From assembly GCA_030445245.1 (NCBI GenBank), contig JAUCSD010000001.1, positions 874,671 through 938,670 of the forward strand: a DNA stretch of 64,000 bases, written 5' to 3'. The translations under genes were made by a program, and so were the position numbers. The notes beneath the pieces were generated by a model. That model searched no databases. It saw nothing but the letters and a program-made list of their open reading frames with translations, and had not been told where the DNA came from. Shown here piece after piece: positions 15,982 to 19,532 of this stretch (position 1 is its first letter; the number at the start of each line of letters is the position of its first letter). This stretch comes from Candidatus Saccharimonadota bacterium (GTDB lineage: Bacteria; Patescibacteriota; Saccharimonadia; Saccharimonadales; Saccharimonadaceae).

Positions 15982-16419
15982 TTACCCTCTCCGATTGCCG
16001 CCAAACAGGAAGTTCATCCATTGCTGGAAGTTGTCTGTCGGTTGAGTCGTTTGTACGGTACGGTTTGTCAGAAGCGTATCAGCCTTCTTTGCTGTTTCAC
16101 TATTAGGTGGTAGGATAATTGCCTTCTCACCCGGCTTAGCAAGCCCTAGACGGGCCCGAATGGCCAGCTCTTGATATTCAGCGCTTTTATAATATCGTTG
16201 CTCATAGGCGAGGTTCTGTGTCTGCAGATCGACGAGCTGAAGCTGGCGTGATTTATCATCAACACCCTTTTGGAGATCGAAGTTACGCTGCATCATTTCA
16301 ACCGAGCCCCAAGCCCAGCCACCACCAATCATCAAAGCAATAGCAATCACGACATTATTCATCGTGAGGTAGCGATACCGAATATGGTAGTAGATTTTGC
16401 GGATGTTTGTTTTTTTCAT
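15982..16419 (-). CDS. FtsB/DivIC-like septum formation protein
   Basis: A 145-aa single-pass protein: cytoplasmic basic start, one membrane helix (residues 21-38), a coiled coil (FDLQKGVDDKSRQLQLVDLQ, about 45-75) and then the FtsB/DivIC signature YYKSAEYQELAIRARLGLA followed by PGEKAIILPP. Such proteins connect division-site synthases in the septal membrane. A Gln/Thr-rich tail ends in FLFGGNRRG. It is convergent with the DUF347 gene and adjacent to a tRNA gene. Confidence 0.8.
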   Translation of the reverse strand: MKKTNIRKIYYHIRYRYLTMNNVVIAIALMIGGGWAWGSVEMMQRNFDLQKGVDDKSRQLQLVDLQTQNLAYEQRYYKSAEYQELAIRARLGLAKPGEKAIILPPNSETAKKADTLLTNRTVQTTQPTDNFQQWMNFLFGGNRRG

Positions 16420-16826: not shown

Positions 16827-17150
16827 CTAGTCGATCTGTTGCATGTAGTCTACAACTATAGCGATAATGGCTTGAACTGGCTCAGAACATTCTTTAAAGA
16901 AAAGTGATTCGAGAACAACGCTACCATGATCTCTAATAACCTGACTAATCATAGAGTGAATAAATGATTGTGTAGCACCATCAATACCAGCGAAATCAAG
17001 AATCACTTTTTTATCTTTCGCTAGATTGGACTCAATTTTCTTGACTCTTATGTCTCTACCTAGATCTTTATTCTCTGCAAATGGACCAACAATCTCCAAT
17101 AAGGAAATTGTTATTGAGTTGTCAGTGTTGAGGTCATTTACATCTATCAT
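16827..17150 (-). CDS. STAS-like DUF4325 protein
   Basis: A 107-aa protein. KKVILDFAGIDGATQSFIHSM matches the DUF4325 signature (hydrophobic-DF-x-G-hydrophobic, then S-F at the helix start), and LESLFFKECSEPVQAIIAIV is the usual C-terminal part. DUF4325 proteins occur next to HATPase genes and resemble anti-sigma-factor antagonists, so a partner-switch role is inferred. It starts 4 bp inside the ATPase gene at 17147, so the pair is co-translated. Confidence 0.6.
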   Translation of the reverse strand: MIDVNDLNTDNSITISLLEIVGPFAENKDLGRDIRVKKIESNLAKDKKVILDFAGIDGATQSFIHSMISQVIRDHGSVVLESLFFKECSEPVQAIIAIVVDYMQQID

Positions 17151-17695
17151 ATAAACCTGGCCTTTCTATACCTTTCTTTACGTCGCTCTTTTACCGCTTG
17201 AGAATATGTACTTTGGATTAATGTCAGGAGATTAGTGAACGCCTCAGTAGAGTTGAGGTTGATATCAATCCCGACGACCGTACCCTGCCAGTAAGGTAAA
17301 TTATCTTTCTCCGAGTGCTTGTCCCTTTCTGGGTCGGCACGTAGCCTCTTCTTGGGGTTCTTCAGCAGTTTGTACATAGACGAGCCGCTGTATACCAAGA
17401 ATAGGTCTTCGTTAATCGAGGCAATCGACTTAATGAAGAAGAGACCGGCACCGGCGTTATAATCCGTACCACCTTCCCTTGTAGTGGTACCAGTTATACC
17501 TGGCACGAGAGCATATTTAATAGCCTGAAGGTCGTCTTTTGGATGATACGTGTCCACCATACTCGCCGCTATACCAATACCTGAATCGACAATACCTATA
17601 CGAATAGTATTGGTTTTCTTGTAGTACTGAACCGCCACAATAGCACCGGCGTCCGGGAATGAGTTCATTTGCCTTTCAGCCGGGATTCCCGGCAC
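17147..17695 (-). CDS. GHKL-type ATPase domain protein, probably 5'-truncated
   Basis: A 182-aa ATP-binding domain: IGIVDSGIGIAASM is the G1 box, AGLFFIKSIAS the G2 box, and GTVVGIDINL a closing strand. The N-box region is short and odd (ERQMNSFPDAG, where E-x-x-x-N-S-x-x-H-A would be expected). Upstream on the same strand a 46-codon open stretch (LEQSLIELFKLLVAY...) ends at a stop, so the N-terminal half of the gene appears lost. The only start is a GTG at 17695. It is paired with the STAS-like gene at 16827. May be a decaying kinase of a partner-switch pair. Confidence 0.5.
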   Translation of the reverse strand: MPGIPAERQMNSFPDAGAIVAVQYYKKTNTIRIGIVDSGIGIAASMVDTYHPKDDLQAIKYALVPGITGTTTREGGTDYNAGAGLFFIKSIASINEDLFLVYSGSSMYKLLKNPKKRLRADPERDKHSEKDNLPYWQGTVVGIDINLNSTEAFTNLLTLIQSTYSQAVKERRKERYRKARFI

Positions 17696-17942: not shown

Positions 17943-18503
17943 TTATTTCTTAGATAAAGACTTAAACAATGTTGCGTTATTCAGATCATCCTGAATGGCA
18001 CGGCACAGTATCACCAACCCGTGAATGTCCGCAGCCCTCTCGCTACCGACGGCCACGAGAGAAGAATCGGATTGTTGTTTTACCAAAGCAACGGCGGCCG
18101 ATGTGTCGTGATAGTTTTCTAATTCCACGTCGGCGAATCGTTTCGCAAGATACTCACTGCACTGCGACAAGGCAACGGGATGTGAGATGATTTTCCTCAC
18201 CTTGCTCAGATCAGTAAGAGGAAGACCTATGATATGTTGTTCGATAGGAAGAAGATACTCACCCTCCGTGGTTAAATCGTTATTATCCAGAAGCATCTTC
18301 ACTTCATGAATCTCACCATGGTTACTATTGCTCACTGCAACAAATATTTTATCTACTTCACCGCTTGCTAGCTTAGAAAAAGTTTCTTCAAAAGATTGGC
18401 AATAGACAAGCGTCACTGGTTGTTTGTAGTAGCGCATCGCCGCGATCTCGTGAAACGAGGCTCTGTCGCCCTGAATGGCGACTGTGATGGTATTGTTTTG
18501 CAT
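17943..18503 (-). CDS. Prephenate dehydratase-like domain protein, no ACT domain
   Basis: A 186-aa protein matching the catalytic part of prephenate dehydratase (prephenate to phenylpyruvate, phenylalanine synthesis): IQGDRASFHEIAAMRY, YCQSFEETF, a changed ENS segment (VSNSNHGEI), HIIGLPLTDL, SHPVALSQC, YHDTSAAVALV, and the end IQDDLNNATLF. The catalytic TRF motif reads TLF, and the protein stops nine residues after its Thr, without the regulatory ACT domain. No other aromatic-pathway gene is in the window. An AGGAGA site precedes the ATG, and a Phe-rich leader ORF lies 64 bp upstream. Either a reduced enzyme or a prephenate/Phe-binding derivative. Confidence 0.75.
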   Translation of the reverse strand: MQNNTITVAIQGDRASFHEIAAMRYYKQPVTLVYCQSFEETFSKLASGEVDKIFVAVSNSNHGEIHEVKMLLDNNDLTTEGEYLLPIEQHIIGLPLTDLSKVRKIISHPVALSQCSEYLAKRFADVELENYHDTSAAVALVKQQSDSSLVAVGSERAADIHGLVILCRAIQDDLNNATLFKSLSKK

Positions 18504-18561
18504 TAAATAGTTCTCCTGAAATTAGGTGGTTGGCTGAATAGAAATAGTGAAGATTAAATAA

Positions 18562-18630
18562 TGCTGCTTAGGCAGCAAAAAACGAAAAGTAAAAAGAGTT
18601 TGAAGAAGTTAAACTTGTCTTTGAACTCTT
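18562..18630 (-). promoter_or_regulatory. Putative Phe attenuator RNA structures
   Basis: Two hairpins in the leader of the prephenate dehydratase-like gene. The upstream one (18594-18630) is followed by a 19-nt tract with fifteen T. The downstream one (18562-18577) has 6 bp and a 4-nt loop followed by ATTATTT. Either could be the terminator; ribosome position on the Phe codons would decide which forms. Confidence 0.4.
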
Positions 18631-18636
18631 AATCAT
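18568..18636 (-). CDS. Candidate Phe-rich leader peptide (attenuator)
   Basis: A 22-codon ORF from ATG at 18636 to TAA at 18568, starting MIKSSKTSLTSS and containing NSFYFSFFAA: four Phe (all TTT) and one Tyr within seven codons, as in pheA leader peptides. The Phe codons lie in the T-rich tract of an imperfect hairpin formed by AAGAGTT (18630-18624) and AACTCTT (18600-18594). A second hairpin, TGCTGC/GCAGCA (18577-18562), overlaps the stop. It lies just upstream of the prephenate dehydratase-like gene. No clear Shine-Dalgarno. Strong by context, unproven. Confidence 0.55.
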   Translation of the reverse strand: MIKSSKTSLTSSNSFYFSFFAA

Positions 18637-18824
18637 TACATTAATGATAACACACTGATTATTGTGGTTTTGACTTCAATCACAACACCCTACTAAAAAA
18701 TAATCTACAGAATCCTTATGTTCTATCTGACAAACTATTGATTTTATTCTTAAATTGTATAGTATGAATAAGTTGTTCCCCCCCTTGAGGGAGGTTGAGC
18801 ATGTTCTTTGATTGATAGGTCCAT

Positions 18825-18920: not shown

Positions 18921-19532
18921 ATGGCTGCAAAACTGGGCACACTGCTCTTCGAAAGGGCGGGGGTCGGTTTCCTGATCAAGGCAGGCACACCGGAAACCCT
19001 CACTATCGCCCCCTACCTCGAAGAGGCGGTGCTGTGGGCAAAAACGACGGGACTCTTTATTCCTCTCCGGCTGCCGCTCATGACCGACATGGTCGTCGAG
19101 TCGTCTTCCGACCAGGAGCGGCTCGCCAGAGGCTGGCAGGATCGCGTCGCAGGCGAGCACCAGCCGTACCTCGGACCCAAGCTCTCCACCTCGCTTCACA
19201 GCAACGTACGCACTCGCGCGCAACTGCTGCGCACGACTCCATCCATGACCGTCAATGATGGGAATGGATGGTTCAATCTCAAGAAGCGGGCTCGCCGCCA
19301 GGAAAAGACCTACGTGGATCTGGCCGAGCGATGGGCCCGCTTCATGGAGAAGGAGATGGGACCAGGACAAAGGAGGAAGGAACGTGGCATCGTCTACACG
19401 TCCCTCTTCCTCGCTGACGGCGATGGCGTGTTCGGCCCCAAGAACCGGGTCGCCGCACTCGCGCCGCTCCGTGACTTCTGGGTCTACTACGACAGCATGA
19501 TCGTTCCGTTCCTGGACGACTTCCGCTCCTGA
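18921..19532 (+). CDS. GC-rich orphan protein
   Basis: A 203-aa soluble protein of unknown function. Strong ribosome site (GGAAGGGAT). Notable parts: hydrophobic start LGTLLFERAGVGFLIKAG, a basic stretch (LKKRARRQEKTYVDLAERWA, about 120-140), and an end rich in aromatic and acidic residues (FWVYYDSMIVPFLDDF). No signal peptide or membrane helix. Its G/C at third positions far exceeds that of the genes around it. Large inverted repeats lie on both sides (18825-18871, 19548-19584, 19611-19654). Together with 7545 it seems to be a self-contained acquired cassette. The 295-aa frame on the other strand is taken as a shadow. Confidence 0.65.
   Translation: MAAKLGTLLFERAGVGFLIKAGTPETLTIAPYLEEAVLWAKTTGLFIPLRLPLMTDMVVESSSDQERLARGWQDRVAGEHQPYLGPKLSTSLHSNVRTRAQLLRTTPSMTVNDGNGWFNLKKRARRQEKTYVDLAERWARFMEKEMGPGQRRKERGIVYTSLFLADGDGVFGPKNRVAALAPLRDFWVYYDSMIVPFLDDFRS

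Follow-up and report, generated by a model that had tools for sequence, protein, structure and literature searches.

The stretch of DNA analysed here, 64,000 nucleotides of a Candidatus Saccharimonadota genome (contig JAUCSD010000001.1, positions 874,671 to 938,670 of the forward strand) and hereafter called the window, carries a short Phe-rich open reading frame in front of a gene for a prephenate dehydratase (PDT). This arrangement raises the question of whether translation of the short frame regulates the gene behind it, and if so, at which step.

The PDT gene (17943-18503, minus strand), the presumed target of control, encodes a protein of 186 aa that matches PF00800 (PDT; Pfam) with 162 bits over residues 8-186 of 186, and a search of the whole genome (1.16 Mb, one contig) returned this single PDT match. 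The protein terminates directly after TLF, found in place of TRF, such that it has no ACT domain; a first-pass annotation of the window had described a prephenate dehydratase-like gene with both of these features, and this description was correct. The closest solved structure is that of a prephenate dehydratase (2qmx), and alignment to solved relatives showed agreement at the Ser and Gln of SHPVALSQC, at the Thr of TLF and also at the Asn of SNS. Searches for chorismate synthase were negative for the window genome and for 17 of 18 relatives, and CM_2 chorismate mutase was not found in the window genome. If these enzymes are indeed absent, prephenate or a precursor of it would need to be supplied from outside, or the PDT may act on something else.

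Other genes lie on both sides of PDT. Downstream of it, a gene for a DUF4325 (STAS-like) protein (16827-17150, minus strand) overlaps a gene at 17147-17695 (minus strand), in whose product an ATPase-like motif was seen by eye and for which no Pfam match was obtained; the pair looks like a small two-gene unit. On the plus strand, a 203-aa ORF (18921-19532) is found inside a GC-rich island (about 0.62, compared with about 0.45 in the surroundings), a composition that suggests a recent arrival. Its product has a weak, below-cut-off similarity to Pfam Tad4 (Thoeris inhibitor; E = 0.008).

The leader ORF, MIKSSKTSLTSSNSFYFSFFAA followed by a stop codon, was found at 18568-18636 on the minus strand and comprises 22 codons, as previously annotated, with F-Y-F-S-F-F near the stop (C-terminus SFYFSFFAA). 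Phe is encoded by codons 15, 17, 19 and 20, within a block at 18577-18594 (minus strand). A putative extended -10 element, TGTTATCAT (18644-18652, minus strand), ends 7 nt before the leader ATG and is followed on the minus strand by the leader ORF, a hairpin here called hairpin 2, an AT-rich tail, a G-poor stretch, the sequence GGAGAA (18511-18516, minus strand), which is the Shine-Dalgarno sequence of PDT, and PDT itself. Clustered Phe codons in a short ORF upstream of a Phe-pathway gene, one of the marks of a pheA-type attenuator, are therefore found at this locus. When the 297-nt region upstream of PDT was subjected to dinucleotide shuffling, an ATG ORF containing four or more Phe within 8 codons arose in 66 of 2000 shuffles (3.3%), and the fold of the window leader is unremarkable (z = -1.42), so that the window sequence taken alone is weak evidence.

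Conservation was assessed by searching the window protein against 394 genomes of the family. One clear ortholog was found, in a genome of a different genus (G152), which is 68% identical and likewise carries TLF, while the remaining family matches were 42% identical or less. A DivIC-like neighbour downstream of PDT (15982-16419 in the window) is common to both genomes with 53% identity, and the two leaders are thus likely to represent the same locus by descent. The G152 leader, MIKSSNTALISSHSFAFAFFAA and a stop codon, also has 22 codons, and 16 of its 22 residues are identical to those of the window leader, so that the leader ORF proved to be conserved. Ten codons differ between the two, six of them altering the residue; all four Phe codons are unchanged, although the interspersed residues at positions 16 (Y/A) and 18 (S/A) have changed. 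The comparison of Phe and Tyr codons proposed in the first-pass annotation thus gave four of four Phe codons kept, and the Tyr codon at position 16 not kept. A TGnTATnnT element ends 7 nt before the ATG in both sequences (TGCTATTGT in G152), and GGAGAA is identical. G152 therefore keeps the leader length, the Phe codons, the stop-codon hairpin and the spacing from the -10 element to the ATG. Searches of 394 genomes of the family and 393 of the order yielded these two sequences as the only ones of this leader type. No further ortholog was found when the family was re-sampled around G152, and no same-genus genomes were among those sampled. A covariance model of the leader, run on the family sample, retrieved the two known members and weak further matches no commoner than chance.

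The best conserved block of the region is hairpin 2 (TGCTGC-CTAA-GCAGCA, 18562-18577, minus strand), whose 5' arm begins within the final Phe codon and whose loop contains TAA, the stop codon of the leader. Of its bases, 14 of 15 (nt 61-75) are identical in G152, the non-coding 3' arm included, and the folding energy is -8.0 kcal/mol in both sequences. The AT-rich tail after it, TTATTTAAT (18553-18561, minus strand), is conserved except for a one-base indel and makes a weak terminator tail, scoring 3.13 in the window and 2.52 in G152 versus 4.4-5.1 in seven relatives; a score of 3.5 or above is reached by most of the clear gene-end terminators in these genomes. Between leader and PDT, no strong intrinsic terminator was detected in the window or in G152, only the weak-tailed hairpin 2. 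The pheA-type layout proposed at first thus stands as regards the Phe leader before PDT, but not as regards a strong terminator in front of the gene.

A fuller arrangement was found elsewhere in the phylum. From the family, order and phylum samples, 133 distinct PDT loci were taken and their upstream regions scanned with a fixed detector, which required an ATG leader having three or more Phe within 8 codons and, after it, a hairpin with a T-tail. Such a combination was detected at 10 of the 133 loci versus 1 of 1290 shuffles (p about 4e-10). Eight loci that escaped the detector because of the start chosen or because their parts were weaker (L030, L039, L041, L102, L108, L111, L135 and L161) were added by eye, giving a partly hand-picked set of 18 relatives, in all of which PDT is preceded by a Phe-rich leader and then an intrinsic terminator. 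A ribosome of assumed footprint size was modelled in two positions, midway along the Phe run and at the stop codon of the leader; the mean terminator probability over the 18 relatives was 0.34 in the first case and 0.86 in the second. When the spacer of each relative was shuffled 60 times, at most 2% of the shuffles reached so low a stalled value in 17 of the 18. By this model, the leaders of the relatives behave as expected of a Phe attenuator. Conservation in G152, together with leaders and terminators before the PDT genes of relatives, places the observation above chance.

Some individual loci were also recorded. Very Phe-rich leaders precede PDT at L146 (for example MKNYLNKWFFFFYFFRRPEPVQVFHFVY), L161 and L165, which belong to other families of the phylum, and at L161 and L165 the PDT lies behind another fused domain. 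Two ACT-less stand-alone PDTs of the same family as the window, L037 (the second copy in G028) and L038 (G036), have no Phe leader, and a chorismate mutase-PDT fusion in G028 (L039) does have a Phe leader and terminator. UGA recoding was considered as an indicator of the phylum and discarded, the two TGA codons in G870 being the natural protein end.

The first-pass annotation had further suggested that leader sensing replaced the lost allosteric control by ACT. No such association emerged: of 94 PDTs with a C-terminal extension, 12 have a leader, and of 19 PDTs lacking the extension, 5 do (Fisher p = 0.16).

The beginning of the leader message was inspected in 20 leaders, namely those of the 18 relatives, the window and G152. 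No Shine-Dalgarno-like sequence precedes the leader ATG in any of the 20, and a -10-like hexamer (at least 4 of 6 positions) ends 3-10 nt before the ATG in 17 of them, with a background of 17%. Under a stricter definition (at least 5 of 6, 4-9 nt before the ATG), 11 of the 20 leaders have the hexamer versus 3.65% of other ATGs. Since Shine-Dalgarno sequences are absent and -10-like hexamers stand close to the ATG, the Phe leaders are probably read from leaderless messages, and for the window a leaderless transcript is predicted on the same sequence features.

With the leader kept in G152, the -10-like element near its ATG and the fuller attenuators of the relatives, it is likely that PDT in the window is under the control of a Phe-codon regulator, as first proposed, and the window leader is probably a real variant of the known kind of Phe-codon leader regulator. 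The fuller reading, in which a ribosome-mediated Phe-codon leader regulates a stand-alone PDT and hairpin 2 serves as a weak terminator or pause, is the one we favour with moderate confidence. Transcription would begin at or adjoining the leader ATG, and a ribosome would load on the leaderless message. When charged Phe-tRNA is scarce, it would pause at the Phe codons; from codon 17, 19 or 20 it would cover part of the 5' arm of hairpin 2, the hairpin would be blocked, and RNA polymerase would continue such that PDT is produced. With ample Phe, the ribosome would depart and hairpin 2 would act as a weak terminator or pause. By analogy with the relatives we infer that shortage of Phe turns the gene on, and we infer also that the step lies at hairpin 2, an assignment that is tentative and may well prove wrong. 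In the occlusion model, a ribosome at the first Phe codon (15) leaves hairpin 2 free and a ribosome at the stop codon blocks it, so that a simple occlusion logic is not clean; modelling of the window found no pair of terminator and alternative structure with the expected direction of stalling.

Control might instead be exerted on translation. The segment at 18549-18564 (minus strand) is predicted to base-pair with the translation start region of PDT (Shine-Dalgarno sequence and start codon) as an alternative to hairpin 2, and the position of the leader ribosome would then decide between the two. This alternative stem is predicted in both the window and G152, but in a different pairing register. 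Identity over nt 76-95 is 80% (16/20) versus 43% (10/23) in the linker before the ribosome-binding site (p = 0.03), and this better conservation fits either output step, termination or masking of the ribosome-binding site. Masking was not significant against shuffles (0.127 in the window, 0.27 in G152), and 2 of 18 and 4 of 18 ordinary genes, respectively, are equally or more closed. In addition, the model has a ribosome stalled at codons 17-20 closing the site and a ribosome at the stop codon opening it, which is opposite to what a biosynthetic gene would need, and a switch of this type is rather unlikely.

The leader could also be the remnant of a full Phe attenuator that has lost its terminator, leaving the gene constitutive or weakly modulated. 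The terminator is present in the relatives and absent from the window and G152, as such decay predicts, but the Phe codons, hairpin 2 and the leader length have been kept while the linker has fallen to 43% identity, and we regard decay as unlikely. Two hairpins and T-rich tracts are present in the leader, as first annotated, and the other hairpin (hairpin 1, AAGAGTT...AACTCTT, 18594-18630, minus strand) had been read as a terminator whose T-tract consists of Phe codons. Its energy of -8.2 kcal/mol and T-rich tail in the window would allow this, but the energy falls to -2.2 kcal/mol in G152, and a hairpin inside the translated region would be disturbed by moving and stalled ribosomes alike; hairpin 1 is not conserved and probably not functional, and this role for it is very unlikely. 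That the leader is an untranslated ORF arisen by chance in T-rich upstream DNA, which the frequency of equally Phe-rich ORFs in shuffles and the lack of a Shine-Dalgarno sequence before it would permit, is highly improbable given the conservation of leader, stop codon, hairpin and promoter spacing in G152. Rho-dependent control of the tnaC type, suggested by the G-poor stretch that follows the leader in both the window and G152, was rejected, as no Rho_RNA_bind match was obtained in any of 19 genomes (window and 18 relatives) with a search that detected the domain in 9 of 14 known genomes. Ribosomal protein L30, whose absence we take to be a mark of Patescibacteria, was likewise missing in 12 of 12 genomes, the same search being positive in 13 of 14 controls, and the two absences, together with genomes of around 1 Mb, fit with Patescibacteria.

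Among known systems, the favoured Phe-codon leader regulator is most readily set beside pheL-pheA of Proteobacteria (Phe_leader, RF01859), in which a short ORF with a run of Phe codons also precedes the prephenate dehydratase gene. The relatives further resemble it in having the terminator and, under stalling, a competing structure, whereas the window has no strong terminator just before the gene and its leader has no Shine-Dalgarno sequence. The Rfam covariance model for RF01859 gave no match in 18450-18760 at E-values up to 5, and L165 scored 44 bits (E = 0.00036), under the gathering score of 55. The pyrBI attenuator of E. coli responds to UTP by way of polymerase pausing; there too, a leader ribosome would be a physical obstacle to a terminator hairpin, one that overlaps the 3' end of its ORF, but the conserved signal in the window is Phe codons. 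Actinobacterial cys genes have leader peptides with codon runs and lack obvious terminators (PMC1262725), and in mycobacteria Cys-rich upstream ORFs are found and leaderless transcripts are common (PMC4633059). These mycobacterial leaders differ in that Cys replaces Phe and the genes are unrelated (PMC1262725, PMC4633059), and mycobacteria possess Rho, whereas its domain was not found in the genomes studied here. In the LEU element of Actinobacteria (PMC1262725) too, a regulatory codon run lies in a region that can base-pair with the Shine-Dalgarno sequence, but the corresponding segment of the window is found at and after the leader stop, outside the codon run, and its pairing is not significant against shuffles.

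In a 2010 survey, leader-peptide attenuators were known only from Proteobacteria and Actinobacteria, to which the survey added Firmicutes (PMC2965389). Our literature search, confined largely to papers outside subscription journals, found no leader-peptide attenuation for Saccharibacteria, Patescibacteria or the candidate phyla radiation. It is conceivable, as a more speculative proposal, that amino-acid-sensing attenuators on leaderless transcripts are an old and widespread form of PDT control in Patescibacteria and that the lineage of the window has evolved a one-hairpin version, switched by the hairpin at the stop codon alone. Should the proposed regulation be real, the leaderless layout would offer a simple signature by which further switches of the kind may be found. 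If the proposed regulation is true, bacteria with tiny genomes that depend on a partner would still sense the charging of their own Phe-tRNA, this sensing would govern the single remaining step of Phe synthesis, and their dependence on the partner for amino acids would become testable.
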